NCBI GenBank assembly: GCA_030429865.1
Contig: JAUIFX010000016.1
Coordinates: 1 to 40,860 of the forward strand
From: Gammaproteobacteria bacterium
Lineage (GTDB): Bacteria; Pseudomonadota; Gammaproteobacteria; Ga0077536
Reading direction: 5' to 3'
DNA length: 40,860 nucleotides
Shown: in pieces, positions 19,002 through 40,860 of the stretch
Layout of the letters: each line of letters begins with the position of its first letter
Numbering within the stretch: the stretch's first letter is position 1
Translations under genes and position numbers: made by a program
Notes under the pieces: generated by a model
The model's input: only the letters and a program-made list of their open reading frames with translations
Told to the model about the DNA's origin: nothing
Databases searched by the model: none

Positions 19002-19856
19002 ATGCAGCTCAGGTGGAAGATCGGTAACGTCAGCATCACGCGCGTCGTCGAGCACGAAGCGCCGACATCCGTCCGTTTCATGTTCGACGGCGTGACGAAA
19101 GCGGATCTCCACGCCATCGATTGGCTCAAACCGCACTTCGTGACCGATGACGGGTACATGCTGTTCAGCATCCATGCACTGCTGATCGAATCCGAAGGTC
19201 GTCGCATCATCGTCGATACCTGCCTCGGCAATGACAAGGAGCGGCGCGTCGATGGCTGGGGCATGCGCAACGGGCCGTTCCTCGACGACATCGCCCGCGA
19301 GGGCTTCGCTCGTGAACGGGTGGACGCGGTGCTCTGCACCCACCTGCACGTGGACCACGTGGGCTGGAACACGATGCTCGTTGATGGCCGCTGGGTACCC
19401 ACTTTCCCCAACGCGGAGTACCTCTTCGCGCGCGAGGAATGGGCTTACTGGAGCGAGCACGAACAGGAAGAGTTCGGAACCGTGGTCGAGGATTCGGTGC
19501 GGCCGATCGTCGACGCAGGCCTGGCTCGGCTGGTCGAACCGAACCATCGCCTGACCAGCGAGGTGTGGCTCGAACCGACCCCGGGACACACGCCGGGCCA
19601 CGTCAGCGTGCGCATCAGCTCGCAGGGCGAAGAGGCCGTGATCACCGGTGACATGACCCATCATCCCTGCCAGATGGTGCACCCGGAATGGGCCGCCAAC
19701 GCCGACTATGACAAGCAGCAGTCGACGGCTACGCGTCGTGCCTTTTATGCACGCTATGCCGATAGCCCGGTGCTCGTGATTGGGACTCACTTCGCAACGC
19801 CGACGGCCGGCCGGCTGGTACGCGATGGCGATGCCTACCGGTTCGACGTCGACTGA
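19002..19856 (+). CDS. MBL-fold (metallo-beta-lactamase) hydrolase
   Basis: A 284-residue cytoplasmic metal-dependent hydrolase. The di-zinc motif is CTHLHVDHVGWNT (HxHxDH, about residue 111). The third His block is TPGHTPGHVSV, the bridging Asp lies in VITGDMTHHP, and the last His in LVIGTHF. The overall pattern is close to AHL-lactonase-like and related esterase members of the superfamily, but the substrate cannot be named. GGGGAGAG nine bases before the ATG supports the start. It is transcribed alone and divergently from the TonB receptor; a run of nine G residues (18832-18840) lies between the two genes. Confidence 0.93.
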   Translation: MQLRWKIGNVSITRVVEHEAPTSVRFMFDGVTKADLHAIDWLKPHFVTDDGYMLFSIHALLIESEGRRIIVDTCLGNDKERRVDGWGMRNGPFLDDIAREGFARERVDAVLCTHLHVDHVGWNTMLVDGRWVPTFPNAEYLFAREEWAYWSEHEQEEFGTVVEDSVRPIVDAGLARLVEPNHRLTSEVWLEPTPGHTPGHVSVRISSQGEEAVITGDMTHHPCQMVHPEWAANADYDKQQSTATRRAFYARYADSPVLVIGTHFATPTAGRLVRDGDAYRFDVD

Positions 19857-20155
19857 AACCGTAACGCCCGGGCGACGTCACCGGCAACGGGATGGCCGTA
19901 ACTCGACCCAACGCCCTCCGGTGTCATCCTGGCCTTCAGGGCACCGGGCCTTGACCCTGTTCCCGTGCAAGCAGTCCGCCGAGCGGTGGCCATGGCGCCC
20001 GGACGTGACAGCGGATCCCGTTGCCGGACGACGCAGACCGCGCCTGGCAGTCCTGCGTTTGCGGTAGTCTTTCACGCTTCGCGGCTCGCATGGTGGTTCG
20101 CACCTGGTGCACGGCCTAGCCTTTGGCGCGAGGCTCCAGGGAGGGTTCGTGAAGC

Positions 20156-20956
20156 ATGCACACCACCATCAAGACGCTCTCGGCGCTCTTCGCGCTCGCA
20201 CTCGGCGCGCCTGCTCACGCGGCCGCAATCGCGATCGTTAACGCGGGCTTCGAAGATCCTTACCTCGGCAGCAATCTGCCGCCGATTTACGCCGGCGACG
20301 TTCCTCCCACGGCTTTCCCGGTCGGCCCGGCGCCAGGCGGATGGTCGGCCTTTGGCGCCACGGGCAACGGCGCTTCGATCGGCGTTTTGAACCCCGGTGT
20401 GGCCGGCGTTGACCCCGGCGCGAGCTTTTTTCCTGGCGGCGCCCCCGAGGGCGACAACGTGGCCTTGCTCTACGCGAACGGCGCTGGCAGCGGCGCGGAG
20501 TTTGGTATCGCGCAGACCCTCGTCGCAACCCTGCAGGCGCATACCCGTTATACGCTCGAGGTGGATGTCGGCAATATCGCCAGTGGAACCAGCACCGAAC
20601 CCCTGCTGTTCGCGGGATTCGGGTTCTTCAACCTCGATGGTTTCCCTGGATATCGTATCGATGTCCTCGCCGGCTCCACGCTGGTGGCGCAGGACACGAA
20701 CGGAGTCAGCCCCGGTGAAGGCGAGTTCCTGACCAGCACGCTGCAGTGGACCACGGGCGCGGCACCCGTGGGTTTCGGCGAGGCGCTGAGTATCCGCCTC
20801 GTGAACCTGCGCAACGCCGACGATCCGGCCGCCACGGGCCTCGAGGTTGATTTCGACAACGTGCGGCTGGACGCGGCACCGGTCCCCCTGCCACCGGGCC
20901 TGGCGCTGTTCGGCTTGCCGCTCGTCCTCGGATTGCGCCGGCGCCGCGCCGGCTGA
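20156..20956 (+). CDS. PEP-CTERM-type secreted protein (VPLPP tail)
   Basis: A 266-residue protein with a signal peptide (TLSALFALALGAPAHAAAIA) and a mature start VNAGFEDPYLG. That opening is shared with a family of secreted proteins that have a jelly-roll or carbohydrate-binding-like N-terminal module. The C-terminus is the sorting signal: APVPLPPG, a hydrophobic helix (LALFGLPLVLGL) and RRRRAG. PEP-CTERM proteins are cleaved at this tail by an exosortase and usually end up in the exopolysaccharide or cell surface. GGGAGGG lies eleven bases upstream of the ATG. This is the first of the PEP-CTERM series that fills the right half of the window. Partner and ligand are unknown. Confidence 0.87.
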   Translation: MHTTIKTLSALFALALGAPAHAAAIAIVNAGFEDPYLGSNLPPIYAGDVPPTAFPVGPAPGGWSAFGATGNGASIGVLNPGVAGVDPGASFFPGGAPEGDNVALLYANGAGSGAEFGIAQTLVATLQAHTRYTLEVDVGNIASGTSTEPLLFAGFGFFNLDGFPGYRIDVLAGSTLVAQDTNGVSPGEGEFLTSTLQWTTGAAPVGFGEALSIRLVNLRNADDPAATGLEVDFDNVRLDAAPVPLPPGLALFGLPLVLGLRRRRAG

Positions 20957-21421
20957 ACGGGCCCACGCGTCATCAGCGCGGCCTGGCAGCGGAGGCTCAC
21001 CCGCTTGGTTCACCTGCCCTTGCTGCGGAGTGCGGAACCTTGGTCCGCCGGTAGCATGCCCGTATAGAGCGCCTGAGCGGACTCGCCGGTGAAGCAATCC
21101 ATCGTCGCGGTGTCACTATCGTGGGCGCAGGGCACTGCCGTTGCCGGTGTCCAGCGCGCGTCCGGGATGTGAACAATCGTATCCGCGCGCGAACGCCCCT
21201 CGTGCAGGCCTGCGGCTGGATGCATCAGCGGCTGTCCGTGCGAACCTGTTGATTCTGCGTCGCTCGTTCTTCGCGTCGCCGGTCGACCAACGCCCGGCGG
21301 CCAGTTGACTGCGGCCGGTACCACGGGTGCCGCTTGCGCACTCGCGAGCGCCTGACCTTGATCTGAAGCGCGGCTGCTCTATGGTCGAGTCAGGGGTGAC
21401 GCACATCGACGGGAGGGTGAG
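20957..21421. other. 465-base gap, promoter side of the next PEP-CTERM gene
   Basis: No gene is supported here. Near the end, TTGATC (21358-21363) and TATGGT (21380-21385) are spaced by 16 bases and could be a sigma-70-type promoter for the gene at 21422. No hairpin terminator or repeat of the RAYT family was seen. Confidence 0.35.
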
Positions 21422-22420
21422 ATGACACGACGGATTCAGTTCCTGACCGCGCTGCTGGCCGGGCTGGCGTCGCTTGATCTACACGCGGCCGCGCTTTATT
21501 ACACCGAGACCGGTTGGAGCGACAGTGCCTCGCGGATCGACCCGGTGCCCGGCATCGCCGGCGCCAGCCGCGAGACGCTGGAGGCGTTACCGAACGTCGA
21601 CCCGCGCGGGATCGCGGTTGATAACGTGAACGGGCACATCTACTACTCGAGCGGCTTCTCGATCAAGCGCGCGAATCTCGATGGCGCCGGCGCAACCACG
21701 ATCCTGACCGCCTCTTCCGGCATTGGCGATGTCGAAGTCGACCCTGTCGGCGGCAAGCTCTACTACTCGACCATTTTCGCTGCGCCGACCGACGGAATCT
21801 GGAGCGCGGCTCTGGATGGCAGCGGAGCGACGCTGATACACGATGCGGTGACGCTGGCGGCGGCCGGTGCGGAGGCCACGATTACGACTCGCGACGTATT
21901 CAACATCAAGGTCGACGCTGATCTCGGCCTGCTCTACTGGACCGCCGACGACGGCGGCGTGGCTGGACGCACCGCGCTCAACGTTTCGAGCATCGGTGGC
22001 GGTGACGCTAGCCAGTTGTGGGTTGCCGCCGGCCGCAGTAGCGCGATCGACAAGATGGCCATCGACTTCGACAGCGACACGCTCTACTACTCGGTCGGTA
22101 GTACCAGCAACGAGATACGCCGATCGGCACTCGACAACAGTGGCCTGGTCACGCTGGTCTCTGGCGTCGGGCGCCCCGGCGCGCTGGCTATCGACGTCGC
22201 CGGCGATGATCTCTATTTCTGGGTCGGGAACACGCTCTACGCGGGGGCGCTCGACGGCAGCGGGCTGGTCAGTCGCTCGTTCGTCGGTAGCGGCCTGTTC
22301 GATGTCTCGGATCTGGAACTCGGCATCTCCGTCGTGCCGCTGCCGCCGGCGGTCGCGCTGTGCGTCACGGCGCTCATTGGGCTGGGCGCTACCCAACGGC
22401 GCCAGCCAGTCCGCGGCTGA
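21422..22420 (+). CDS. PEP-CTERM-type beta-propeller-like secreted protein
   Basis: A 332-residue exported protein. The signal peptide is FLTALLAGLASLDLHAAA. The body carries repeated units of the form GIAVDNVNGHIYYSS, VEVDPVGGKLYYST, IKVDADLGLLYWT and MAIDFDSDTLYYS, each followed by a polar loop. This is the cadence of YWTD/LDL-receptor-type beta-propellers, here with about six blades. The C-terminus is VVPLPPAV, a hydrophobic helix and QRRQPVRG, a somewhat weakened tail because the Arg cluster is interrupted by Gln. GGGAGGGTGAG directly before the ATG gives a firm start. Propellers of this class usually mediate surface protein or sugar interactions; that role is inferred. Confidence 0.87.
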   Translation: MTRRIQFLTALLAGLASLDLHAAALYYTETGWSDSASRIDPVPGIAGASRETLEALPNVDPRGIAVDNVNGHIYYSSGFSIKRANLDGAGATTILTASSGIGDVEVDPVGGKLYYSTIFAAPTDGIWSAALDGSGATLIHDAVTLAAAGAEATITTRDVFNIKVDADLGLLYWTADDGGVAGRTALNVSSIGGGDASQLWVAAGRSSAIDKMAIDFDSDTLYYSVGSTSNEIRRSALDNSGLVTLVSGVGRPGALAIDVAGDDLYFWVGNTLYAGALDGSGLVSRSFVGSGLFDVSDLELGISVVPLPPAVALCVTALIGLGATQRRQPVRG

Positions 22421-22530
22421 GGGCAAATGCGCCGCAGCGACGGGCTGGTCGGGCAGGTTCGAAGCTGCCGGTCGGCGCCAGGTTGGTCTGTCCGTCCCGT
22501 GGTTCCCGCCTGTCTCGCTTCGGCCGCTCG

Positions 22531-23196
22531 TCAGGATCGGCCGCGGCGCATGCGGCGTCGTGAGCCGAACCCGGTCGCCATGGCCAGCAGGGCAAGCGTG
22601 AAGGAGGCCGGTTCCGATACTTGAACCCGTTGCGTCACGCTGAACTGGCAGGTGTAGTTGCCAGGAAATGCCGCGGACGGACGCCGGCAATCCTGCGCGC
22701 CGGCCAGTTCGACCTCGAAGCCCGATGGATGGAACTCGTCGAAGACGACGCGGTTGCCGGCAGCGCCGAACACGACATCGGTCGCCCCGGTCTGCACGAC
22801 GCCGAGATTCGGAGCGATGAACTGCAGGAACGAGCCGTCCGCCGCGAAGACCACGCCGTCGGGACCGGCAGGGCTGGGCACGAGATCGCTTTGCGTCAAC
22901 GTGGTGCCGTAGATGTCGAAGTTCAGCGCGGTCAGGTCGGTGACCGGTACGAAATGCGAACCGGCTGGCGGGTATGGGGCAGTCAGCATGACGCCGTTCA
23001 GATCGATGCCGGCATCGCGCACGCTCTGCTCGACCTCGAGTGAACCGGTGCCGATGACATTACTGCCGCTATCGAAGAACGTGAAGTCGTAGATGAGCCC
23101 GGCGTGGGCCGCCGGCACGGTCATCACGGCGAGTGCGGTGACAAGCGCGCCGTGGCGCAGAACGCGCCGCGTGTTCGAGATGATTGGTTGCGACAT
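22531..23196 (-). CDS. PEP-CTERM secreted protein (SEPAS tail)
   Basis: A 221-residue protein with a signal peptide (GALVTALAVMTVPAAHAGLIYDFTF). The mature part is beta-rich with two Cys residues about a dozen residues apart (QDCRRPSAAFPGNYTCQF), suggesting a disulfide. The C-terminus reads SEPASFTLALLAMATGFGSRRRMRRGRS, a classical PEP-CTERM tail with Ser in place of the first Pro. The mature opening LIYDFTFFDSGSNVIGTGSL is a common beginning for small PEP-CTERM proteins of unknown function. GGGGAGGG is six to eight bases before the ATG. It is convergent with the propeller-like gene. Confidence 0.85.
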   Translation of the reverse strand: MSQPIISNTRRVLRHGALVTALAVMTVPAAHAGLIYDFTFFDSGSNVIGTGSLEVEQSVRDAGIDLNGVMLTAPYPPAGSHFVPVTDLTALNFDIYGTTLTQSDLVPSPAGPDGVVFAADGSFLQFIAPNLGVVQTGATDVVFGAAGNRVVFDEFHPSGFEVELAGAQDCRRPSAAFPGNYTCQFSVTQRVQVSEPASFTLALLAMATGFGSRRRMRRGRS

Positions 23197-23557
23197 GAGC
23201 CCTCCCCCTGTTGCTGCATCCCGGTTGATGGACAGCCATGCCCGCGGGCCCCGGCCGTCACGATCGAAGGCATTTCATACTCCTGCGGTGGCGTCGTCAG
23301 CTAGCGCGTCGAACGTCAGGAAACACAAATTCACAATCTGGTCTGCTACCCGGCTCGGGGGCAAACCGCGATTCTGCTGAGCGTGACGACTGGCGCTTGT
23401 GTGTCCGGCGCGACCGAGCGGCGACATCGGACTTCAAGGCGGTCGCCGGTGCGCACTGTGTTCCGCTTGCACGGCCGCATCGCGACTGCGTCCCTCATCC
23501 GCCAGTCGGACGCATGCGGGTCCGGAAATGCAGTGCTGTGAACTGCGTGCAGCCCGT
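23197..23557. other. 361-base gap without a gene
   Basis: This stretch holds the promoter side of the minus-strand PEP-CTERM gene and the 3' flank of the NTF2-like gene. I see no coding frame, repeat or terminator hairpin that stands out. Confidence 0.4.
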
Positions 23558-23929
23558 TCAGGCCTCGCGGTGGTAAGCCTTCGACGTCACCAGCCAGTTG
23601 TCGTTGATCTTGTGGTAGCAGAGATAGTCGACGAAGACGTTGTCGTTGATGCGCACGCGTACCTTGGCCAGCGCCTGGGTCGGCGAGGTGAAGTCCATCA
23701 GCAGCACCTCGTGTTCGCGCGGCGCGCCCTGGTCCTTGGGCGAGGTGCGCCCCGCGAGGATCTCCTTGTACTGTGCGGCGCTCCAACAGCTCATCTTGTT
23801 GTCGCGGAAACCGTGCAACTGCGCGGTGGACGCGAAGACGCGGTCGAAGTCGGCCACGTCGCAGTCGTACATGAGATCGAAATAGCGGTCGATTGCGGCG
23901 CTGAGCGCGGCGATGTCGATCATGTTCAT
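23558..23929 (-). CDS. NTF2-like protein (SnoaL/lumazine-binding-like)
   Basis: A 123-residue single-domain protein of the NTF2 cone fold: an N-terminal helix pair (IAALSAAIDRYFDLMYDCDVADFDRVF), HGFRDNKMSCWSAAQYKEIL, and then beta strands (EHEVLLMDFTSPTQALAKVRVRIN, VDYLCYHKINDNWLVTSKAYHRE). The last strand with NDNWLVTSKAYH is typical of the putative lumazine-binding/DUF4440-like branch. Such proteins are small enzymes or ligand binders with no common reaction. The start at 23929 has only a weak purine-rich site upstream; the in-frame Met at residue 3 is an alternative. It is probably monocistronic. Confidence 0.82.
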   Translation of the reverse strand: MNMIDIAALSAAIDRYFDLMYDCDVADFDRVFASTAQLHGFRDNKMSCWSAAQYKEILAGRTSPKDQGAPREHEVLLMDFTSPTQALAKVRVRINDNVFVDYLCYHKINDNWLVTSKAYHREA

Positions 23930-24338
23930 CGATGGTCGGTTCCCCTGGTCGGACGCCCTGGAGCGGTGTTCACCCTAGCGACAGAGTAGTACCGTGAGAA
24001 GATCGCGGGGCGACCGCGCACCGGGCGAAGCAGGCACTCGCACGACGTCGCCGGCGCAGACCGCCAGCGCGGCCGTGTTGCCGCGCGCTGCGAGCCGCGA
24101 GACGATGTCCGCGAGCGCATCCGGTGGCGAGGCGTCGATTTCCGCCGTCTGCCTGGTTCAGCACATTTCCCGCCCGCCTTCATCGTCCGTCGTGCCGCTA
24201 ATCGGCGCGCCCGTCCGGCGCTCGCCATGCGCGCCCGGTCGTCGTACGCGACGTCACCGTACGGCGCACCTATACTGCATGGGACGCAGGCCGGTGCGGG
24301 GCCGAGGTCTGCGTCTACACAGCGGGGAGGGCGTCACG
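23930..24338. other. 409-base intergenic region between divergent genes
   Basis: This is the shared upstream region of the NTF2-like gene (minus) and the amidase (plus). It ends with GGGGAGGG, the ribosome site of the amidase. The frames that extend into it in the ORF track lack motifs and are not called. Confidence 0.4.
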
Positions 24339-25760
24339 ATGGACGACAAGGACCTGTGTTACCTGAGTGCGACGGAAGCACTCGCGAAGTTCCACGCGCG
24401 CGAGCTGTCGCCGGTCGACGTGGTCAAGGCGCAGATCAAGCGCAACGAGGCGGTCGGCAGTCAGCTCAACGCGACGACCTACACGTTCTTCGAGCGCGCG
24501 CTGAAAGAGGCCCGTGCGGCGGAAGCGAAGTATCTCAAGCCGCGCGCGCGGCGCCTGCGCCCGCTCGAAGGCATCACGGTCGGGATCAAGGATTTCCATT
24601 CGATCAAGGGCGAGATCACGACCTACGGGTCGAAGGCATTTGCCAATCACCGCCCGGACCAGACCGCGCCCACGGTCGAGCGGCTGCTGAAAGCGGGAGC
24701 AATCCTGCTCCTGCGCACCACCACCCCCGAGTTCGCCTACTCGGGGATCACGCGCAGCCCGCTATGGGGCGTGACGCGCAATCCGTGGAACATTGAGTGC
24801 ACCCCCGGAGGATCTTCGGGCGGCGCCAGCGCAGCCATCGCGGCTGGCCTGGTGACGCTGTGCGATGGCACGGACGGCGGCGGTTCGAACCGGATCCCGG
24901 CGAGTTTCGGCGGGGTGGTCGGTTACAAACCGCCGTTCGGACGCAATCCCATGGATCGCGAACACCCGCTCGAGAACCTCCTGCATTACGGACCCATCGT
25001 ACGCAGCGTCGGCGATGCCGCGTTGATGCAGAACGTGATGTCGGGACAGCACGTCGCCGATATCTGCTCGTTGCGCGAGCCGATGACGTTACCGGAGTCC
25101 TTCGAGTCAATCCGCGGCATGAAGATCGCCTATACGCCGGACTACGGCTTCATGCAGATCGCGCCCGACGTTGCGCGCAATACGCGCGCCATGGTCACGG
25201 TGCTCAAGCGCCTCGGCGCTAAGGTCGAGGAAGTCGACCTCGGCTGGAACTGGGGCGCGCTGGATACCTGGATGACGCGCTGGGAAGGTGCGTTCGCCGG
25301 GCTCATCGGCGACATCCTGCCGCGCTGGCGTTACGAGATGTCGCCGTTCTGTCTACGCATCGCCGAGCAGGGGCTGCGCCACAGCGCGGCGCGCTTCTAT
25401 CGCACCAATGCCGGCCGCTGCGAGCAGTGGCAGACCCTGGGGCCGATTCTCGAAAAGTTCGATGCCCTGGTGGGTCCAACCCTCGCGGTGTCGAGCCTGC
25501 CGGTGACGCACGACGAGGCTGCTTCCGACTTCACCATCAACGGTGAGCCGGTAGATCCTTACGTCGGGTGGTCGTCGACGTGGCTGTTCAACAACCTCTC
25601 ATGGTGCCCGGCGATGAGTGTGCCGAGCGGGTTCGGCGATAACGACATGCCGACCGGGCTGCAGATTGTCGGCCGGACCTTCGACGACCTCGGCGTGTTC
25701 CGTATCGCCGCCGCGATCGAGAAGGCCCGGCCCTGGCGGGAGCGCCGCCCCGAGCTATGA
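24339..25760 (+). CDS. Amidase signature family enzyme
   Basis: A 473-residue cytoplasmic amidase. The catalytic Ser-cisSer-Lys triad is visible: Lys in GITVGIKDFHS (about residue 85), the Gly/Ser-rich signature CTPGGSSGGASAAIAAG, and the nucleophile Ser in DGGGSNRIPAS. The family hydrolyses amides such as aryl or short-chain amides, or serves in transamidation; the specific substrate is unknown. GGGGAGGGCGTCACG before the ATG at 24339 fixes the start and rules out the longer track ORF from 23994. Its last six bases overlap the end of the convergent GDSL gene. Confidence 0.94.
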   Translation: MDDKDLCYLSATEALAKFHARELSPVDVVKAQIKRNEAVGSQLNATTYTFFERALKEARAAEAKYLKPRARRLRPLEGITVGIKDFHSIKGEITTYGSKAFANHRPDQTAPTVERLLKAGAILLLRTTTPEFAYSGITRSPLWGVTRNPWNIECTPGGSSGGASAAIAAGLVTLCDGTDGGGSNRIPASFGGVVGYKPPFGRNPMDREHPLENLLHYGPIVRSVGDAALMQNVMSGQHVADICSLREPMTLPESFESIRGMKIAYTPDYGFMQIAPDVARNTRAMVTVLKRLGAKVEEVDLGWNWGALDTWMTRWEGAFAGLIGDILPRWRYEMSPFCLRIAEQGLRHSAARFYRTNAGRCEQWQTLGPILEKFDALVGPTLAVSSLPVTHDEAASDFTINGEPVDPYVGWSSTWLFNNLSWCPAMSVPSGFGDNDMPTGLQIVGRTFDDLGVFRIAAAIEKARPWRERRPEL

Positions 25761-26690
25761 GGCGCGGCGGCGCCGGCCGGCGAGCACGCCGACAGCAGGC
25801 ACCAGCATCCACGCGGCTGCGGGCAGCGGTACGGCACTGACTTCGGCGAACGCGGCGGCGCCGATGTAGGCGTGCGCCGCGGCGGTCGGGTGCACCTCGT
25901 CCCACAGCAGGTAGCTGTCCGGGTCCGCGCACACCGTGTTGCCGTCGTAACACGGGTCGAACACGTTGGTGAAACCGAACAGCGCACCGCCGTTGCCAAG
26001 GGCATCGCCGATGAACGTCGCGAACAGGCCGTTGACGTCGAGGCGCATGAGGTTGAGCAGCGGGTTGCTCGCTTCGACACCGTCCAGCATCGTACCGACG
26101 GCGGCATTGAGCTGCACGAAAGGCGCGCCGATCTCGGGCAGATTGGGCACCAGGAAATTGCGCGCGCCGGAGGCGGCAAGACCGTTGATGACGTTCTCCA
26201 GGTTGGAGGCGGAGTTCGTCACGTCGTTGGCGAGCGCGTCGTTACCGCCTCCCCACACGACGTAGAGCGCGTCGGGATCGGCGACGCCGGCGACATCGTT
26301 CAGAAACAGTCCCGTCTGCACACCGAGATCGAGCGGCGCGAGCGGACCGGGCTGTCCACCAGTCCTGGCGCCACCCCAGGCGTAGTTGTTGCCGCCGCCG
26401 AAGGATGGCGAAACGGCGAGCCCGAGCGAACCCGCGAGATGTTCGACCCACACCGGGCCGTTCGAAAAGCGGCCGCTCGCGTACGGTGGCGGGTAAGCCA
26501 GCGCGCCGGCGCCCGCGGCCTCGTAGTTACCGGTTTCCGACAGGCTGTCGCCGAAGACGAAGATGTCCGAATAGGCGGCCATCGCCGCTTGTGCGGGCAT
26601 GCTGACAGCGAGCACCAGCGTAAGCGTCAGCGCGAGCCGGGAGAGGTGCGAAGCGAGGCGCGAGAAGGGCGCTTTCTCTTGGTTTGGCAT
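25755..26690 (-). CDS. SGNH/GDSL hydrolase with VPLPA-type PEP-CTERM tail
   Basis: A 311-residue secreted esterase or lipase-like enzyme. After a signal peptide (LALTLTLVLAVSMPAQAAMA), block I FVFGDSLSETGN holds the nucleophile Ser. Block III appears as VVWGGGNDAL, and block V, LLWDEVHPT, holds the catalytic Asp and His. The C-terminus AVPLPAAA, a hydrophobic stretch (WMLVPAVGVLAG) and RRRRAS form the sorting tail. GDSL enzymes with such tails are known in PEP-CTERM genomes and resemble autotransporter-type esterases. It is therefore probably displayed at the surface and acts on an ester in exopolysaccharide or on lipids. It is the only member of the local PEP-CTERM set with an evident catalytic site. 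The ribosome site is weak. Confidence 0.92.
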   Translation of the reverse strand: MPNQEKAPFSRLASHLSRLALTLTLVLAVSMPAQAAMAAYSDIFVFGDSLSETGNYEAAGAGALAYPPPYASGRFSNGPVWVEHLAGSLGLAVSPSFGGGNNYAWGGARTGGQPGPLAPLDLGVQTGLFLNDVAGVADPDALYVVWGGGNDALANDVTNSASNLENVINGLAASGARNFLVPNLPEIGAPFVQLNAAVGTMLDGVEASNPLLNLMRLDVNGLFATFIGDALGNGGALFGFTNVFDPCYDGNTVCADPDSYLLWDEVHPTAAAHAYIGAAAFAEVSAVPLPAAAWMLVPAVGVLAGRRRRAS

Positions 26691-26778
26691 GTCCGTGGTT
26701 TCCCTGCTTTTTCTCGGAGCGCCTAGATGGTCCGTGCCCGCGGGGGTGATTGCAAGGCATGCGGCCGCGGGAATTCGG

Positions 26779-26973
26779 AAATTCAGTACGGAAATTCCAG
26801 AAATTCAGTGACCAGAAATTCAGTGACAGTTACTGTATTAGCCAGCACCGCAGCGTCGGACGCACGAGCGAATCGTGCGCCAGTGCGGGGAAATACAGTT
26901 ACTGTCACCGAATAAGCCGAATCGTGCGCCAGTGCGGGAAATACAGTTACTGTCACCGAATTAGCGCACCGAA
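26779..26973. repeat. REPIN-like palindrome with partial copies on both sides
   Basis: The complete unit runs from 26816 to about 26914. It has the left end AAATTCAGTGACAGTTACTG, an inner segment with hairpin CGCACGA-GCGAA-TCGTGCG, and the right end GAAATACAGTTACTGTCACC. An outer CCGCA/TGCGG pair also brackets the hairpin. On the left lie three broken copies of the left end (starting at 26779, 26792 and 26801). On the right the last ~45 bases are repeated at a period of about 49 (26918-26963), and CACCGAATTAGCG is then doubled. It lies just after the stop of the PEP-CTERM gene at 26987. The ends match those of the RAYT element at 32.6 kb, so this is a nonautonomous relative. Confidence 0.9.
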
Positions 26974-26986
26974 TTAGCGCGGGCGC

Positions 26987-27649
26987 CTAGGCGCGCCGCC
27001 GACGAGAACCTGCAGCGGCCAGCGCGATTCCGAGCAGTGCGAGTGCACCGGGCTCGGGAACGTCGTTCGCTGCCTGCGTGTTCAGGACGACATTGTCGAT
27101 ATACTGGAACGGCGTGGCACCCAATCCACCCGTGGTAGTGAAATTGCGGCGCATCCGGAAACGAACCTCGTACGTTCCGGCGGCGACGGTGTCGTTGTAG
27201 CTCAGCGAACTACGGACGACGTCGCAGCATGCGGGCGAGCCAAAGTCGTGCGAATCCACCACGACGTTGTTGACCAGCAGTTCGAACAGCCCCCAGTCCG
27301 AGTTGCTGCCATTGAAATCCGTCGAGTCGAAGGCCGCGATATCGGCGGAGACGCTGAATGCACCCGCGCCGACGTTGACGCTCTGGTAGATGCCGCCACC
27401 ACTGTTACCGGGATTGCTGAGGTTGCCGACCTGGAACCTGGCTGCGAGCGATGCGCCACCGCCGGTGACGTCGAAGCTCGTGACCACCGGCGTGCCGGTC
27501 GTGCCGTTGCTCGTGGTGAACTGCGTCCAGCCGGAAAAATCACCGGTCTCGAAATCGCCGTTGATCAGCGTGGCCGACGCTCCGTCTGCAAGAAGCAGGG
27601 AGGCCGCGAGTGCCACGAGTGCAGCCCCGGTCTTCGTCCTTGTCACCAT
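26987..27649 (-). CDS. PEP-CTERM secreted protein (VPEP tail)
   Basis: A 220-residue exported protein. The signal peptide (GAALVALAASLLLADGASA) is followed by TLINGDFETGDFSGWTQF, a frequent opening of PEP-CTERM proteins with a carbohydrate-binding-like jelly roll. The middle is beta-rich with a CC pair (FGSPACCDVV). The tail is the canonical DVPEPGALALLGIALAAAGSRRRRA. This is the only perfect PEP motif in the set; most others are VPLP. The start at 27649 has AAGGA eight bases upstream; the track start at 27727 lies in an AT-rich promoter region (AAAATAGT, TTTTAAAA). The gene ends 14 bases from the repeat cluster at 26779-26973. Confidence 0.9.
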   Translation of the reverse strand: MVTRTKTGAALVALAASLLLADGASATLINGDFETGDFSGWTQFTTSNGTTGTPVVTSFDVTGGGASLAARFQVGNLSNPGNSGGGIYQSVNVGAGAFSVSADIAAFDSTDFNGSNSDWGLFELLVNNVVVDSHDFGSPACCDVVRSSLSYNDTVAAGTYEVRFRMRRNFTTTGGLGATPFQYIDNVVLNTQAANDVPEPGALALLGIALAAAGSRRRRA

Positions 27650-28116
27650 GGTGGAATCCTTCTGAATATTCGACACGGAGGCTGCCCTGCATTTTTCGGG
27701 CCGGAAATTCACTATTTTTAAAATCAATTAGTTATGATCTTCGAATGCGGATCATGGCTGCCACTATAAAATTTCTTGACGGTCGAGATGGTGGCGGTCG
27801 GCGCTACGCCCCGGGATCCCAGGTGAGGTCAACGATTTTTCCCGGCGCTTCATGGTGTTAGGCCAGTTGTAAAGTTCCTTGACGAGGGCTCCCTGGTGAC
27901 CTTGGCCGTGGTGCCGGATCTTGCCTTCTATCGGGCAACTTCGCCCGCATCGAACGGCGAAGCTTGGTGGCGTGACGCGTGGTGCTCGATCGGTCTGGCG
28001 GACAGGACCCCGGGGCCCGCATGCGCCCGGGCTATACGTCCTGGCCACGCCGGCCGGCGAGCACGCCGAGCGCCGGCACCATGATCCGCGCCGAAGCGGG
28101 CAGCGCCGGCCGTTGG
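27650..28116. other. 467-base gap with an AT-rich promoter-like part
   Basis: No gene is supported. The first 100 bases are clearly AT-richer than the rest of the window (ATTTTTAAAATCAATTAG at about 27714), fitting the promoter of the minus-strand PEP-CTERM gene. Two loosely similar pieces, TAAAATTTCTTGACGG near 27767 and TAAAGTTCCTTGACGA near 27870, lie about 100 bases apart in direct orientation; their meaning is unclear. Confidence 0.35.
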
Positions 28117-28770
28117 TTACCGAGCGTGTCGGCGCCCGAAGCCGGCCAGGCCCGCGAGACCCGCACCGAGCAGCCAGACACCCGCGGGCAGGGGCACCGG
28201 GTGCGGTTCGCGGTAGAGCCAGAAACCGACGATGTCCGCATTCTCCTGGTCGATGTCGGAGCGGTCATCGGTCTGCAGCTTGTCGAAGAACGGATTGTTG
28301 TCGATACGCCCGAGATAGGCACCGGTTGCCGGGTCCGGATCCTTGTCGCGCGTCCAGCCGAACACGCGCTCCTCGACACCGCCGAACAGCGCCGTGATGT
28401 GGAACACGCCGGTGTCGGGGCCGGGTCCATCGTTATCAATCAGTGCCGGCGCCCACGTGCTGTTGGCGATTTCGTACTCTTGCGGCTCGGCGGTGAAGAA
28501 GCCTGCTCCGCCGGAGAGTTCGTGGAACAGCGTGTTGAGGGTCGCGACGTTGGCCCAGCGCCAGCCGTCTAGATTGATGCCGCCCAGCGTGCCTGCGCAG
28601 ACACCGGTACCGACATCGCAGACCGGAACGACGTCGAACCACGTGAAACCGAGCGTGTCGGCTGGTTGCAGCCACTCGCGGCCCAACCCGTCAACGTAAG
28701 CGACGTCGGCACGAGCGACGAGCGGCAAGCTGACAACGAACGCGAGCAGTATGACGACAGGGCGTTTCAT
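28117..28770 (-). CDS. PEP-CTERM-type secreted protein (VPLPA tail)
   Basis: A 217-residue protein starting MKRPVVILLAFVVSLPLVARA, a clean signal peptide. The mature opening DVAYVDGLGREWLQPADTLGFTW is followed by a short Cys pair (VCDVGTGVCAG) and WRWANVATLNTLFHEL. This pattern recurs in small PEP-CTERM proteins whose role is unknown. The tail is PVPLPAGVWLLGAGLAGLAGFGRRHAR, close to the VPLPA-CTERM consensus. GGAGGAAACATCG before the ATG at 28770 fixes the start. It is upstream of the VPEP-tailed gene on the same strand but separated by 467 bases, so it is probably an independent transcript. Confidence 0.9.
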   Translation of the reverse strand: MKRPVVILLAFVVSLPLVARADVAYVDGLGREWLQPADTLGFTWFDVVPVCDVGTGVCAGTLGGINLDGWRWANVATLNTLFHELSGGAGFFTAEPQEYEIANSTWAPALIDNDGPGPDTGVFHITALFGGVEERVFGWTRDKDPDPATGAYLGRIDNNPFFDKLQTDDRSDIDQENADIVGFWLYREPHPVPLPAGVWLLGAGLAGLAGFGRRHAR

Positions 28771-28988
28771 CGATGTTTCCTCCGGCAACAGGTGTCGAAC
28801 CCGAACGATGGTTGCTTGTATGCCGAGAGCTTATCCCTGCGCGCGCGACGAAGTCGACGCGCCGGCGGGACGACAAGTTGCTCCACGTCAATTCTTCGGA
28901 CGCTATGCCGTTGCCGCAATGTTTGTTTGCAATGATCGACGGCGATACGGGTGCCGCGCGAGGAAGCGACCTTGGCGCCTGGAGCTGG

Positions 28989-29566
28989 CTACTGCGGCCG
29001 TCGTCTGCGCGAGACTGCCGCCGCGGCCCCCGAGCCCGCGATCAGCATCAAATTCAGTGACAGTAACTGTATTTGCTAGCACCGCAGCGTCGGAGGTACG
29101 AGCGAATCGTGCGCCAGTGCGGGAAATACAGTTACTGTCACCGAATAAGCGCAAGCAGCCCGCCGACCCGCAGGATGGCATACGTCTGGCCGAGATCCAG
29201 CGTGTGCGGCGGGATCATTTCGATATCGGGCGTGCCGCCGCTGAGACACACGTTTCCCGTGACGTCATAGAAATCGTGCTCGGAACCCTGGGCGAGCCCT
29301 GCGAGCTCCACCGCCAGCGAGCCGACGTTGCCGAGCCAATAGTCGCCATTGATCGTATCGACGTTCAGCACGCCGCCAGGCAACTCGAACCTGCCGCCCG
29401 GGTGGACGTCGACCTGGACGGCGCTGAGCGCCCCCCTGACGAGCGCGAGCGTTCCCGCGTTGACCTGCACATCACCGAAGAACGTGCTGTCGCTGGTGTC
29501 GGCGGCTACCTCGTTGGGCAGGCCACCGATGTCCACTGGCCGCCCATGCATGTGCGACGGTCGCAC
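28989..29566 (-). pseudogene. PEP-CTERM gene broken by a REPIN
   Basis: Two remnants of one gene flank the repeat at 29050-29148. The upstream part (29566 down to 29138) encodes a beta-helix or autotransporter-like segment (VDTINGDYWLGNVGSLAVEL, then DLGQTYAILRVGG) and runs into a stop inside the repeat. The downstream part (about 29064 to 28989), in another frame, encodes LMLIAGSGAAAAVSRRRRPQ and a stop, which is a PEP-CTERM helix with its Arg cluster. The VPLP-like motif and any linker between them are missing, so a deletion accompanied the insertion or followed it. The upstream part also lacks a signal peptide and so is truncated at its 5' end. Confidence 0.72.
29050..29148. repeat. REPIN-like palindrome, second copy
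   Basis: This ~98-base element has the same ends and inner segment as the one at 26816-26914. The left end here reads GTGACAGTAACTGTATTT, so with its right end GAAATACAGTTACTGTCACC it forms a nearly perfect long inverted repeat. The inner hairpin is GGTACGA-GCGAA-TCGTGCG; relative to the first copy one arm has changed, but a T-G wobble keeps part of the stem. The copies agree at most other positions, so they are recent relatives. It interrupts a PEP-CTERM gene. Confidence 0.9.
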
Positions 29567-29672
29567 GACGGTTGCGCCGCTGCGTGGTGTGGTCGCGATA
29601 TCACGGCGCCGTTGGGCACTTGTACCCGTTATCGGACAACTTCGTCACCACGGCGACGTTCGGAAGGGGCGT

Positions 29673-30518
29673 TCAGCCAGACACCACCGCGCGCCGTCGC
29701 CGCAGACCAAGCAGCGCGGCGGCGGATGCGAACAGCCATAGCGGGGCCGGCAGTGGAACGGGCGCGATGCCGGCGCGCAATGCCTCGGGTGCGAGTGGCG
29801 GCGGTTCGATCGTGAGCGGGTCCTCGAATTCGAACGCGACAACTTCGGCGTAGTCGTCGATTGCCGCGATGATGTCCAGTTGGTACGCGAATTCGACCGT
29901 CTGCCCCGGGTTGAGCGTACCGAGGGCAACGCTTTGGAAACTGAACGGAATGTTGACGCGCCAGCCGAGCGATGGATCGCGGACCGCGCCGATGTCAGCG
30001 CCGAACGTCGTGAAGCCGGGGTGCCCGGCGGCGTCGTCGCCGGTCAAGCCGATGCCTGTTTGAAACACGATGTCGGCGTCGACGCTGAGCGTCAGCTGCA
30101 GATGGAGCGTCGACAAGGGGCCGGCGAGGAAGCTCAGTTCGCCACCGTCGATGATGAAATTGGCCTCGGCATCGCGCGGGCCGCCAAACGGCGGCGTGCT
30201 GACGTCGGCTTCGATGAGTACCTGCGCCCGGAGCTCCCCGCGGGTGAATATCGTGCCGCTTACCCCGTAGTTGCCGAATTCGCCGACGGAGCCGATGGCG
30301 TTGTATCCGGGACCGGCAATCGATGCGATCAATGCGCGGTTGATGTCGGCTTCCGTTGCGCCATCGATCCTGTCGCTATCCACGATGCTGTCACCGAATA
30401 CAGCCGGGTCGGGATCGAATTCGAGGAAGACTTGTTGACTGATAGCGGCCGCACTCGAATCGGCAAACAACAGCCCAGCGATAACTGCACCGACGATGCA
30501 TCCTGGTCGCGCGCTCAT
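29673..30518 (-). CDS. PEP-CTERM-type secreted protein (VPLPAP tail)
   Basis: A 281-residue exported protein. The signal peptide (GCIVGAVIAGLLFADSSAAA) is followed by a long beta-rich body without Cys in the mature part and without recognised domains; SQQVFLEFDPDPAVFGDSIVDSDRIDGATEADINRA near its start suggests a regulated or metal-binding acidic region. The tail is APVPLPAPLWLFASAAALLGLRRRRAVVSG. AAGGAGGTTCTT directly upstream of the ATG at 30518 is one of the strongest ribosome sites in the window and rules out the track start at 30788. It is divergent from the gene at 30901. Function is not known. Confidence 0.88.
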   Translation of the reverse strand: MSARPGCIVGAVIAGLLFADSSAAAISQQVFLEFDPDPAVFGDSIVDSDRIDGATEADINRALIASIAGPGYNAIGSVGEFGNYGVSGTIFTRGELRAQVLIEADVSTPPFGGPRDAEANFIIDGGELSFLAGPLSTLHLQLTLSVDADIVFQTGIGLTGDDAAGHPGFTTFGADIGAVRDPSLGWRVNIPFSFQSVALGTLNPGQTVEFAYQLDIIAAIDDYAEVVAFEFEDPLTIEPPPLAPEALRAGIAPVPLPAPLWLFASAAALLGLRRRRAVVSG

Positions 30519-30900
30519 AAGAACCTCCTTGTAGACGGAACTGGCCGCGGATCCCTGCATGCCTTCGGCCATCGGATACGCGATCGCCGCTCGTGAATAC
30601 AAGCAGGGTGCGGGCACGGCGTGCGCTTTGCTTCGCCGGCCCCAGTTGAACCTAGCGAAAGCGTGCGGGGCGCGATAGCACGGCGCGGGAGAAATGTGCG
30701 CGACTTCCGCATTCGCTCGTGCACCGACGCACGGGTGAGTCGGTGGCTGTGCACGCGGGACATAGCCCGGCGCGCCACGGGCGAGCACGGCGCCGAGGTG
30801 CGCTGAATCTACCTTCCCGTGAAGTATTTCCGGGCAGGCAGCCGGCGCGCTGGTGGTATGATTATAACTATCGAGCGCGGTTCACACGGAGGGGCCAACG
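30519..30900. other. 382-base divergent promoter region between two PEP-CTERM genes
   Basis: No gene is supported. Close to the plus-strand gene, TATGATTATAACTATCG (about 30857-30873) is the only AT-rich patch and could hold the -10 element of the gene at 30901; its -35 partner is not clear. No RAYT-type repeat occurs here. Confidence 0.35.
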
Positions 30901-31734
30901 ATGCGTGAACGAACGAAGTGCGCCGCGTGCGCCGCGGTACTCGGAAGCGCGCTGCTCGCTGCCGGCGGCGCTGCGGCGGCCGTGCAGGCGACGGCACAGG
31001 GAACCGTATGGGGCACGGTGAACGGAACGCCGGTGCTGCTGGACGTGCTCGACATCGCAGTGCTCCCCGACACCCACGCGTCCGTCGACGACACCCTCGT
31101 CCAGGACGGGTTCACGTTCGACTTCGAGGCCTCGGCCGATTTCGCGACCGGCCTGCTCAAGGTCCGTACGGTCGCTTCCACGAGCGCCAGCGCGAGCGGC
31201 TCGGCGGACGCGACGTCCGGCTCGGGTCTGCCGACGGCGTTCGCTCGCCTCGTCGAGCAGCTGACCTTCACGCCGTCGAACGCAGACCCGTATACCGTCA
31301 CCGTCACGATGACCTCGGACGGGACCTACACGCTGGATCCCACGACAGCCTTCGGCTGGGGCAACGCCCAACTTTCGCTCACCGTGGACGGCAGTACCCA
31401 GAACGACTTCGACCAGGTCGACATCCTCCCGGCCACGGGCCTCATCGTCGAGACGCTGACTACCGAGCTACAGCTGCAGGGCACGCGAACCGTGAACCTG
31501 TTCGCGCAGCTCGCCGGGCAGTTCGACAGCATCGCCGGCCCGAACGCGTTTTCCGCCTTCGAGTTCGGGAACTCGGCCCAGCTCGCGCTGAACGTCCCGG
31601 CATCGGTGAACGTCACCAGCGGCAGCGGTGTGTTCTTGACCGCGGTGGTGCCGCTTCCGCCCGCTCTGCCGCTGCTCGCCGTCGCGCTTACCGTGTGCGC
31701 GCGGCGCCGCCGCCAGACCGAAGGCGCAGCGTAA
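30901..31734 (+). CDS. PEP-CTERM-type secreted protein (VPLPP tail)
   Basis: A 277-residue exported protein. The signal peptide contains three Cys (CAACAAVLGSALLAAGGAAAA). The body is beta-rich and Ser/Thr/Ala-rich, for example TVASTSASASGSADATSGSG, with no recognised domain. The tail is VVPLPPALPLLAVALTVCARRRRQTEGAA, with the Arg cluster followed by seven extra residues. CGGAGGGGCCAACG precedes the ATG. Surface display through an exosortase is expected from the tail; nothing in the sequence points to an enzyme. Confidence 0.87.
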   Translation: MRERTKCAACAAVLGSALLAAGGAAAAVQATAQGTVWGTVNGTPVLLDVLDIAVLPDTHASVDDTLVQDGFTFDFEASADFATGLLKVRTVASTSASASGSADATSGSGLPTAFARLVEQLTFTPSNADPYTVTVTMTSDGTYTLDPTTAFGWGNAQLSLTVDGSTQNDFDQVDILPATGLIVETLTTELQLQGTRTVNLFAQLAGQFDSIAGPNAFSAFEFGNSAQLALNVPASVNVTSGSGVFLTAVVPLPPALPLLAVALTVCARRRRQTEGAA

Positions 31735-32167
31735 GTGTCAGCTCTTGCTTTTCGCCTGGGTGCCGCAGCCCGCGTCGAACCGCAGTGATTGAGGGCGTTG
31801 CGCTTCTGCCCGCATGGACTGCCGGGAAGGTTTCCTGATGCCACGTCCCTCGCGCTTGACTTGTGACCGCTAGTAGCGCCCGGAGGCTGCGGAAAATCAG
31901 TGATTGCTTCGGTTCGCCCGGCTCCCGAGTTGATCGAATCGTGTGTGCAGCCCGCAAGGAGCGGGCAAAGGGCAAGACCCGACACCACACGCGAACTCCC
32001 GAGGCGCGTGCACAGCACTCGCTGGCCCGGTGGCATAATCCCCGTAGCGCGCAGCGTCACAATGTGGTTGTCTCGACCTTCGCGCCCGCGATGCGCCAGC
32101 GTCGGACCCTTTGCCATTTGTGCACGCGGCGCGAGTCGCCATGAACCTGCACAGGAGACTCTTCAGC
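31735..32167. other. 433-base gap without a gene
   Basis: It carries the upstream region of the His-rich protein gene. Frames in the ORF track that cover it on both strands have no motifs or ribosome sites. No terminator hairpin or RAYT-type repeat was seen. Confidence 0.4.
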
Positions 32168-32518
32168 ATGACTAATACTTTTTCGTCATCCGCCACGCTC
32201 GGTGCGTTATTGGTGGCCACTGTATTCACGGTGGCGGCACCTTCGGTCCTCGCGGCAAATAACGACGCCACTTCGGCGCCCCACGCGACGGTCCACGATC
32301 ACCATCACGGGCAGGATGGTCACATCGACGAGCACGCACACCACCACGGCAGCGACGGCCATGCCGACGAGCATGAGCACCACCACGGTGACGACGGTCA
32401 CGCTGATGAGCACGAGCACCACCATGGCAGTGATGGCCACGCCGATGAGCACGAGCATCATCACGACGATCCGCCCGGCGGACACGAAGACCATCACCAT
32501 CACGCCGACGACGCCTGA
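32168..32518 (+). CDS. Secreted histidine-rich protein with 13-residue repeats
   Basis: A 116-residue protein. A signal peptide (LGALLVATVFTVAAPSVLAANN) is followed by a mature part made almost wholly of His, Asp, Glu and Gly. The unit GHADEHEHHHGDD, 13 residues or 39 bases, is repeated about four times with small changes, and the protein ends in HHHHADDA. A chain like this should bind Zn, Ni, Cu or Co in the periplasm, as a buffer or metallochaperone; this is inferred from composition. AGGAG lies ten bases before the ATG at 32168; ATGs at 32111 and 32141 are possible but would lengthen the signal peptide. No metal transporter is adjacent. It lies immediately upstream of the RAYT element. Confidence 0.8.
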   Translation: MTNTFSSSATLGALLVATVFTVAAPSVLAANNDATSAPHATVHDHHHGQDGHIDEHAHHHGSDGHADEHEHHHGDDGHADEHEHHHGSDGHADEHEHHHDDPPGGHEDHHHHADDA

Positions 32519-32610
32519 TCGCCCGCGACGGCCCCAATCGCGCGCAACCAGCAGAGGGGCGCTGCCGTGTGCCGCGGCGGAGGTTACGGGGCCGACCAAA
32601 TTCGATCTCC

Positions 32611-33393
32611 GAATTCGGTGACAGTTACTGAATTTCCAACAGCTGGATGAAGGCGGGTATAGACTGAGCCCGTGCCGCATATCACACGGAGGTGATGGCA
32701 TGAGCAGGATCGCCCGAGTCGTGGTGGCGGGGTTGCCCCACCACGTGACGCAACGAGGCAACCGTCGGCAGACGACGTTCTTCGAGCCGTCGGACTATCG
32801 GACCTATCTGTCGATGCTTGCTGTCGCTTGCCGGCGGGCGGGGACGCGTGTCTGGGCGTATTGTCTGATGCCCAATCACGTACATCTCGTCCTGGTGCCG
32901 TCAGCGGAGGATGGCCTGCGGGCCCCCTTGAGTGGTACGCACCGCCGTTACGCCGAGGGCATCAACCGCCGCTTCGGATGGCGAGGCCACCTTTGGCAGG
33001 AGCGCTTTCACTCGTTTCCGATGGACGAAGGATACTTGCTGGCCACGGTTCGCTACGTCGAACGTAACCCGGTAGCGGCGCGCCTCACGCGCACGGCGGC
33101 GCAATGGCCGTGGTCGAGCGCACGAGCGCACCTCGCGGGGCGTGACGACGAGTTGGTGGAAGTCGGCCCCATGCTGGAACGCATCAACGATTGGGCGGCC
33201 TACCTTGCACAGACACCCGGCTCGGAAACACTGGAGGTGATTGCCCGTCACACCCGAACCGGCCGGCCGCTGGGTGAGGGAGAATTCGTGGCGCACCTCG
33301 AGCGGCGCCTGCAGCGGCCGTTAGCGCCGCAGCGCCGTGGGCGCAAGCCGACGGTGCGCGATTGAGGGAAATACAGTTACTGTCACCGAATAT
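32611..33393 (+). mobile_element. RAYT element, complete copy with inverted REP ends
   Basis: The 783-base element begins with GAATTCGGTGACAGTTACTG and ends with GGGAAATACAGTTACTGTCA plus CCGAATA. The reverse complement of the right end matches the left end at about 24 of 27 positions, so the ends are inverted. Between the left end and the gene lies a ~65-base leader containing GGGTATAGACTGAGCCCG. The transposase stop codon directly abuts the right end. A near-identical leader and gene start recur at 40718-40860, and shortened derivatives occur at 36.5 and 39.2-39.7 kb, so this is a repeated family and not a single domesticated RAYT locus. Confidence 0.87.
32700..33365 (+). CDS. REP-associated tyrosine transposase (RAYT, Y1/HUH family)
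   Basis: A 221-residue Y1 transposase. The N-terminus is VAGLPHHVTQRGNRRQTTFF, the RAYT signature. The HUH metal-binding motif is in MPNHVHLV (about residue 60), and the catalytic Tyr is in VRYVERNPVAARL (about residue 118), followed by WPWSSARAHL. Such enzymes cut and rejoin single-stranded DNA at REP hairpins and are thought to spread REP/REPIN elements. All catalytic residues are present, so the protein is probably functional. The last ~57 residues (from DWAAYLAQTPG) are the part preserved in the shortened derivatives. CGGAGGTGATGGC precedes the ATG. Confidence 0.95.
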   Translation: MSRIARVVVAGLPHHVTQRGNRRQTTFFEPSDYRTYLSMLAVACRRAGTRVWAYCLMPNHVHLVLVPSAEDGLRAPLSGTHRRYAEGINRRFGWRGHLWQERFHSFPMDEGYLLATVRYVERNPVAARLTRTAAQWPWSSARAHLAGRDDELVEVGPMLERINDWAAYLAQTPGSETLEVIARHTRTGRPLGEGEFVAHLERRLQRPLAPQRRGRKPTVRD

Positions 33394-34496: not shown

Positions 34497-35388
34497 GCGG
34501 CGCCCGTTTGCGGCGATGGCGGACACCAGGCGCAAGGATCCGCGCGGCGTCTTGCCGTTCAGCCCGCGCAAGGCCGGGCCACATACCGTCAGCCACTGGC
34601 ACGGATCGCCGGCGCCCAGCTCATGCTGGACGACGGCGCCCGGCCGTAAGCGGTGCTACCACGGAAAGGGATACCTGGCAGGAATCATGACCATGAAACG
34701 ACTATTCGCGTACATCTCGTAGACCGCCGAGAGGACCAACGAGGTGCCCGTCGCTCGTTCGTCCATCCATCCGCCTCAGCCCCGCCAGCCTGCGCGCCTT
34801 GCCCGCCCCGCAACCCCGCACCAGCGCCCACGGCATCGCCGCCGGATCGACCTTCCGCCGACGACAGGGCATCCCGCTCTCTTTCGCCTGCACTTCCAAC
34901 TCGCGCTGTGCTAGCAGCTGGTCGAGGTCTCCCGGATACGAATAGGCTTGCCACAGGGCACGGCATTACTTCTGCCTCTACTGAGGCGGCGCAACCACGA
35001 ATAATTTTGAGGCCGGTTCTAGACGCCTCCGCTTATCCGAACACGGACGTCGCAACAGGCACCGTGCCTGCTACCGCCCTGTTGCCGTACGGCGGTGCAA
35101 CGCTGGTATGGCGTGCGGATGTTACGTTGCGTGAACTCCCTCCTCGCGTTCGTTCGGCGCGTTGAAATATTTCCCTCGTTCCGTACCATCGTTGGGGTAT
35201 TTCACGTGCACGGACGCTCACGACGACATGGCGAGTCGCCCAGCGATTTCCTCCGACGAGCTGCCCCTGCCATCTCAGCCCCGATTTCGTTCCGGGTTAT
35301 ACCGTCCGCCCCGCCCAGGTGAGCGTCTCATCCGAACGCGTACCCGCCGGGTGTAGGGCTCGCGCGCTGTCAAAGGAGACGCCTTGTC
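34497..35388. other. 892-base region without a clear gene; possible gene remnants
   Basis: This is the longest stretch without a supported gene. At 34687-34722 a ribosome-site-like CAGGAATC is followed by an 11-codon frame, MTMKRLFAYIS and a stop, which looks like the start of a signal peptide cut short. The rest has no frame with a signal peptide or known motif. Codon-like structure is weak and T-rich tracts occur, for example around 35160-35200. I read it as decayed sequence, but I cannot name the parent genes. Confidence 0.4.
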
Positions 35389-36480: not shown

Positions 36481-36723
36481 AAATTCAGTGACAGTTACCG
36501 TATTGCCTAACGTCATTGATTGGGCCGCCTACCTCGCACAGATGCCCGGCGCGGAAACACTGGAGACGATTGCCGGTCACACCCGAACCGGCCGGCCGCT
36601 AGGTGAGGGAGAATTCGTGGCGCACCTCGAGCGGCGCCTGCAGCGGCCATTAGTGCCGCACCGCCGTGGACGTAAGCCAATGGCGCGCGATTGAGAGAAA
36701 TACAGTTACTGTCACCGAATATC
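36481..36723 (+). mobile_element. Internally deleted RAYT derivative
   Basis: This ~243-base element has the left end AAATTCAGTGACAGTTACCG and the right end GAAATACAGTTACTGTCACC. Between them are only a short joint (TAACGTCATTGATTGGG) and the last ~57 codons of a RAYT, read as DWAAYLAQMPGAETLETIAG onward to a stop at 36694. By eye it is roughly 90 percent identical to the end of the complete gene. The catalytic HUH and Tyr regions are missing, so it can only move in trans. The right end is followed by two extra partial copies of TCACCGAATATCCC. Confidence 0.88.
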
Positions 36724-39181: not shown

Positions 39182-39424
39182 AATTCAGTGACAGTTACCG
39201 TATTTCCTAACGTCAGTGATTGGGCCGCCTATCTCGCATAGATGTCCGGCGCGGAAACACGGGAGGCGATCGCCCGTCACACCCGAACCGGTCGGCCGTT
39301 GGGCCACGAAGACTTCGTGGCGCGTCTCGAGCGACGACTACAGCGGCCGATAGCGCCGCAGCGCCGCGGGCGGGATCCGATTGAGCGCGATTGGGGGAAA
39401 TACAGTTACTGTCACCGAATATGC
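39182..39424 (+). mobile_element. Internally deleted RAYT derivative, first unit of a tandem pair
   Basis: It has the same layout as the derivative at 36.5 kb (left end, TAACGTCAGTGATTGGG joint, RAYT C-terminal codons, right end) but comes from a more diverged transposase lineage. The reading frame has an in-frame TAG early (DWAAYLA, stop) and then MSGAETREAIARHTRTGRPL, with GHEDFVARLERR where the complete gene has GEGEFVAHLERR. The original stop is also lost (GATTGGGGG instead of GATTGAGGG). It is nearly identical to the next unit at a period of 239 bases. Confidence 0.87.
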
Positions 39425-39426
39425 CA

Positions 39427-39663
39427 ATGACAGTTACCGTATTTCCTAACGTCAGTGATTGGGCCGCCTACCTCGCATAGATGTCCGGCGCCGAAACACG
39501 GGAGGCGATCGCCCGTCACACCCGAACCGGTCGGCCGTTGGGCCACGAAGACTTCGTGGCGCGTCTCGAGCGACGTCTACAGCGGCCGATAGCACCGCAG
39601 CGCCGCGGGCGGGATCCGATTGAGCGCGATTGGGGGAAATACAGTTACTGTCACCGAATATGC
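39427..39663 (+). mobile_element. Internally deleted RAYT derivative, second unit of the tandem pair
   Basis: This is a head-to-tail copy of the preceding unit, shifted by 239 bases and differing at only a few positions. Its left end is trimmed to ATGACAGTTACCGTATTT, missing the first bases of the left repeat. The right end GAAATACAGTTACTGTCACC is intact and lies 27 bases from the stop of the next PEP-CTERM gene (39690). The tandem arrangement fits either unequal exchange of a single unit or insertion next to an existing end. Confidence 0.87.
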
Positions 39664-40636: not shown

Positions 40637-40806
40637 AAATTCGGTGACAGTTACTAAATTTCGAAATTCAGTGACAGTTACTGTATTTCCCAACGCCTGG
40701 ATGAAGGTGGGTATACCGAATTCGGTGACAGTTACTGAATTTCCAACGCCTGGATGAAGGTGGGTATAGACTGAGCCCGTGCCGCATATCACACGGAGGT
40801 GATGGC
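40637..40806 (+). repeat. Stacked left ends and leader of the second RAYT copy
   Basis: Three left-end copies follow one another: 40637-40661 (end only), 40664-40715 (end plus leader down to GGGTATA), and 40718 onward (end plus the full leader to the gene start). Units two and three are spaced by 54 bases and share CAACGCCTGGATGAAGGTGG. The leader of the last unit is nearly identical to that of the complete element at 32.6 kb. This indicates repeated truncation or insertion at the left end. Confidence 0.87.
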
Positions 40807-40860
40807 ATGAGCAGGATCGCCCGAGTCGTGGTGGCGGGGTTGCCCCACCACGTGACGCAA
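40807..40860 (+). CDS. REP-associated tyrosine transposase, start of a second copy (cut by window end)
   Basis: The first 18 codons (MSRIARVVVAGLPHHVTQ) are present before the sequence stops. They are identical in protein to the complete RAYT at 32700, and the preceding ribosome site (CACACGGAGGTGATGGC) is also identical. Whether the gene is complete, or is another shortened form, lies beyond the window. Confidence 0.9.
   Translation, partial: MSRIARVVVAGLPHHVTQ

Follow-up and report, generated by a model that had tools for sequence, protein, structure and literature searches.

A short inverted-repeat element, probably a non-autonomous TIRtron copy, in what remains of a probable PEP-CTERM beta-helix gene

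Within the 40,860-nucleotide stretch of gammaproteobacterial DNA analyzed here (the window; contig C243 of genome G000), a short inverted-repeat element stands between a beta-helix body and a hydrophobic helix with an arginine cluster, raising the question of whether a mobile repeat has severed a surface protein from its anchor. This had been proposed in an earlier note, which placed the element between body and tail accurately to the base and correctly had the body frame stop inside it. The features of the locus, compared throughout with a congener (genome G001), are as follows.

28989..29051, minus strand: tail remnant, LMLIAGSGAAAAVSRRRRPQ and a stop; hydrophobic helix and Arg cluster, lacking a PEP/VPLPA motif
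29052..29146, no strand assigned: 95-bp TIR pair (the "REPIN" of the earlier note), apparently a TIRtron with an internal deletion; TIRs at 29052-29074 (left) and 29124-29146 (right), core at 29075-29123
29138..29140, minus strand: stop (TGA) of the body ORF, inside the right TIR
29147..29512, minus strand: what is left of the body, 122 codons with homology to PEP-CTERM beta-helix proteins in their C-terminal domain
29513..29672, no strand assigned: spacer behind the next gene; the congener retains it at 90% identity, but there it borders a TIR element and not the body
29673-30515, same strand as the body: PEP-CTERM gene, ending 160 bp upstream of the body

The arms of the 95-bp element are 23 nt long and 96% complementary, and one strand by itself folds with a free energy of −28.1 kcal/mol (z = −6.4). 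Its unit ACAGTNACTGTNNNNGAAT is present in 14 copies in the window (at most one mismatch), as compared to 0.00 expected. The core matches the right end of a complete TIRtron, 3.5 kb away and bearing the same TIR ends (ATTCGGTGACAG...CTGTCACCGAAT), at 80% over 71 bp; the element consists of two TIRs and the final ∼50 bp of a transposase gene, the core being the 3' end of such a gene. Related copies in the window are as follows.

26818..26913, no strand assigned: 96-bp element closest to the 95-bp one (94% identity), accompanied by an additional right TIR at 26943-26961
32613..33391, plus strand: complete TIRtron, with its Y1/HUH transposase gene at 32700-33365 and flanking TIRs of 25 bp that match at 22/25
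36483..36720, plus strand: deleted TIRtron copy (TIR, transposase gene 3' end, TIR), its left edge a synteny breakpoint with the congener
39183..39661, plus strand: deleted TIRtron copy (39183-39420) and a second 3'-end copy to 39661
40639..40860, plus strand: TIR units together with the 5' part of a second, 98% identical TIRtron copy that the end of the contig truncates

The transposase (221 aa) matched PF01797 (Y1_Tnp) above cut-off (E 4e-10), with HVH and Y...NP motifs readable in the sequence; a C-terminal HTH extension as in subclass 2.1 was sought, and Pfam gave Y1_Tnp only. The 3' end of the second TIRtron copy was found on another contig (C44:3861-4060), and C243 and C44 are therefore probably adjacent in the genome. 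In the congener, a contig that begins at the element carries a 423-bp deleted copy (C303:1-423), which the core of the 95-bp element matches at 83%. Its left TIR is the same, and after it come the 9-mer GCTAGCGCC and, 324 bp further on, a second 9-mer, GCTAGCACC; deletion between the two would leave 99 bp arranged like the 95-bp element. Because this larger deleted copy exists, the form of the 95-bp element is explained: judged from sequence, it looks like an internal-deletion derivative of the TIRtron, a MITE whose autonomous parent lies in the same genome. The readable series from complete TIRtron through 423 bp to 95 bp indicates that a REPIN-like TIR pair can arise by internal deletion.

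Identification of the element as a REPIN did not hold. Like REPINs and BIMEs mobilized by RAYTs (PMC3116915, PMC8266576), it is a hairpin-forming pair of inverted short palindromic units, ∼95 bp in all with a long hairpin, in a genome that encodes a REP-type tyrosine transposase. However, the GTAG or GTGG tag sought at the palindrome foot is absent from both feet, all listed units ending in GAAT outside ACAGTNACTGT, and the core is transposase-gene DNA. Rather than hundreds of dispersed units, sequence searches of the genome found 23, confined to C243 (26.8-40.7 kb), C44 and C5, and the transposase scored 59 bits against NF047646 (REP_Tyr_transpos), below the cut-off of 80. The parent element instead fits the TIRtron/TIRYT class of Di Nocera et al. 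2013 (PMC3733652), defined by a TIR-associated tyrosine transposase and, in most but not all members, a GGGGWSAS motif in the TIR. As in that class, the window gene encodes a Y1/HUH transposase between long TIRs and not GTAG REPs, TIR copies occur elsewhere in the genome as dimers and clusters, and family relatives of the transposase (in G007, G009 and G010) adjoin repeats with GGGGACAG or GGGGACAC, fitting the published motif. The window family differs from the published elements in that its own motif, GGTGACAG, is one base from GGGGWSAS, its copies are restricted to a few loci beside PEP-CTERM genes (two TIR loci adjoin PEP-CTERM-type genes in both species), it shows graded internal deletions down to 95 bp, and it has at least two nearly identical transposase copies. 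No literature tying PEP-CTERM genes to TIRtron-type elements was found at the level of titles and abstracts.

Target duplication is not expected of Y1/HUH elements, and a by-eye check for one at the 95-bp element revealed nothing beyond AA. In its Y1/HUH parent, with duplication neither expected nor seen, the element departs from the MITEs of bacterial insertion sequences (Nezha, NEMIS; listed in PMC3733652), which it resembles in size (70-300 bp), in TIR length (15-30 bp) and in being non-coding and internally deleted from an autonomous element. The 4-mer TCAA stands both to the left of the 95-bp element and to the left of 36483; other copies have different 4-mers, and so no target motif is claimed. 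Insertion into coding DNA, presented in the earlier note as exceptional, is not without precedent, as REPs within genes have been described (PMC3733652) and 14 of 1,067 SBW25 16-mers overlap genes (PMC3116915).

The minus-strand ORF that contains the body (29566..29138) ends in YAILRVGGLLALIR and a stop. Nine C-terminal domains of PEP-CTERM beta-helix proteins, taken from this genome, from relatives and from a Phycisphaeraceae MAG, were combined into a profile, against which the body scored 76 bits (E about 1e-25, search space 1), while no significant family was found in Pfam, NCBIfam or PHROGs and none of the PEP-CTERM models matched the ORF. Since GC content by codon position is 0.70/0.43/0.84, the body appears to have been coding until fairly recently. 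Homologues in the same genome make up the C termini of 797-aa and 1784-aa open frames, whereas only 122 codons of the body are left; it also lacks ∼20 conserved codons (GG.LAPGDSPG) that the profile homologues have, an inner gap that could be natural variation. The body does not duplicate another gene of this genome, in which its best paralogs are 34-37% identical. Neither an intact, uninterrupted ortholog, for which the earlier note had proposed a search of related genomes, nor an empty site was found in the congener and other relatives (96 genomes), the order, or the GTDB r220 contigs; the last yielded body homologues only in Phycisphaeraceae, at 38-40%. As the closest homologues are in a Phycisphaeraceae MAG (40%) and not in same-family relatives, the gene may have been acquired from elsewhere.

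Also gone is the 5' part of the gene. The body ORF opens with 18 codons (29513-29566) of conserved spacer DNA, shared with a congener that lacks the body, and at the 5' boundary (29512/29513) the congener sequence switches to a TIR element exactly. There is no room for the missing part, because a same-strand gene (29673-30515) comes to its end just 160 bp upstream. The ORF start, lying in conserved spacer, shows no hydrophobic segment of a signal peptide upon reading of the sequence.

On the other side of the element, minus-strand positions 29051..28992 encode the 20-residue tail in a frame other than that of the body ORF, with TAG at 28991-28989, directly abutting the left arm. The hydrophobic helix and Arg cluster resemble the PEP-CTERM/VPLPA-CTERM signal (PF07589, TIGR02595, TIGR03370), complete examples of which are borne by neighboring genes, but the defining PEP/VPLPA motif is absent from the tail and from between body and tail. 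A tail of this kind might be no more than GC-rich spacer whose translation resembles a helix with arginines by chance, unrelated to the body. Arg-rich frames are common in GC-rich DNA, a helix and Arg tail before a stop being expected 0.87 times per 40.9 kb (six frames, second-order Markov model); two other matches in the window look like chance, and with 20 residues and 0.9 bits against the profile the tail might conceivably be that of another gene. However, it lies on the right strand, abuts the element (by our estimate a coincidence of roughly 1 in 300 to 1 in 1000), falls in frame with the body when the 95 bp are omitted, and resembles the tail of the closest homologue (AGSGA....SRRRR). 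A chance origin of the tail is thus in our view very unlikely. Homologues have the same body domain followed by a similar tail on the same strand (Phycisphaeraceae, ...VPEPASLTVAGSGALTLLSRRRR), and removal of exactly 95 bp restores one frame (a 1 in 3 chance); body and tail therefore probably derive from one gene, in keeping with the idea that the element splits a single gene.

The split is not a clean one. The closest homologue reads ...VGGALSG, then 40 residues ending in VPEPA, then SLTVAGSGALTLLSRRRR, whereas the order in the window is ...VGGLLAL, element, LMLIAGSGAAAAVSRRRR; at the element, ∼40 codons are absent, among them those of the PEP/VPLPA motif. These absences bear on the possibility that a REPIN cleanly entered an intact PEP-CTERM gene, ended the protein early and cut off its tail, all other damage being later. 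Such a history would account for the in-frame join, the exact abutment of the tail and the coding GC periodicity that the body keeps. Against it stand the ∼40 codons that homologues possess at the junction and the 5' part, replaced by conserved spacer, while the in-frame join is a 1-in-3 coincidence; we regard a clean insertion as highly improbable. The gene lacks its 5' part, signal peptide, inner segment and PEP motif, and because it is broken in these places too, the supposition that insertion alone removed anchoring from a working protein is not supported. The region is to a large extent broken apart from the repeat (5' part, inner segment and ∼40 codons gone), a finding that the earlier note had named as one that would count against its reading. 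The locus, at first seen as a protein cut off its anchor by a mobile repeat, is better described as a scar in a pseudogene.

We consider it probable, then, that a short non-autonomous TIRtron copy has come to lie in a PEP-CTERM beta-helix gene of which a degraded 3' end remains. Internal deletion of a TIRtron would have produced a short TIR pair with ∼50 bp of the transposase gene 3' end, the transposase would have moved this element into either the gene or what was left of it, and a loss of ∼120 bp may have accompanied or followed insertion. The remainder would be a pseudogene from which the 5' part, the inner segment and ∼40 codons at the element are gone, and the insertion would accordingly have no present effect on anchoring beyond added damage. 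As no empty site or intact ortholog was found, the insertion point, the 120-bp loss and the event order rest on homologues of ∼40% identity or less, and the order cannot be fixed from one genome.

The surroundings of the element would also fit a different history, in which recombination or adjacent deletion at TIR elements united a 3' gene fragment, an element and the spacer, the junctions being scars of segment loss. Three of the four large differences between the two genomes in this region have a TIR element at an edge (the 29512/29513 junction, 30714-33353, and 36482 to C44:3805), and in the congener a TIR end abuts 29513 directly. Yet the 95-bp element is a tidy TIR pair with both ends complete, and body and tail still follow one another correctly on one strand and in frame, an outcome not favored by recombination between distant copies; we judge this course of events unlikely. 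A lodged TIRtron copy remains our preferred reading of the locus itself.

The segment from 36483 to C44:3806 has TIRs on both sides and contains a LysR gene, two PEP-CTERM-like genes and the second TIRtron copy. The congener has 57 other bases in its place, and TIR elements are therefore associated with loss of target bases elsewhere in the island as well. The link between TIRs and differences is not universal, since no TIR is present at the left end of synteny (18837) or at a 95-bp difference between the genomes (34676-34770). From 18838 to 29512 (∼10.7 kb, with several PEP-CTERM genes) there is no close match in the congener over most of the length. Within the window, 32111-32518 encodes a small protein with many histidine, aspartate and glutamate repeats, possibly metal-binding, for which no Pfam family scored above cut-off.

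A broader proposal would be that PEP-CTERM genes are gained and lost through the action of the TIRtron family, TIR-bounded segments such as that from 36483 to C44:3806 being inserted or deleted as units with loss of edge bases and the broken gene being one such scar; this we hold to be speculative and rather improbable. Should TIR-bounded differences prove general, surface-protein genes would owe part of their turnover to these little-studied elements, and the graded deleted copies, together with their position at differences between species, merit a further look.

An orthologous locus (L094, 4280-4770 of contig C5; L096, 153-690 of contig C100 in the congener) adjoins a VPVPGA-CTERM gene. There the element stands to one side of a 95-bp flank in one species and to the other side in the other, the element copies being 97% identical and the gene side 89%; because of this difference in position, the arrangement speaks for local movement or independent insertion.
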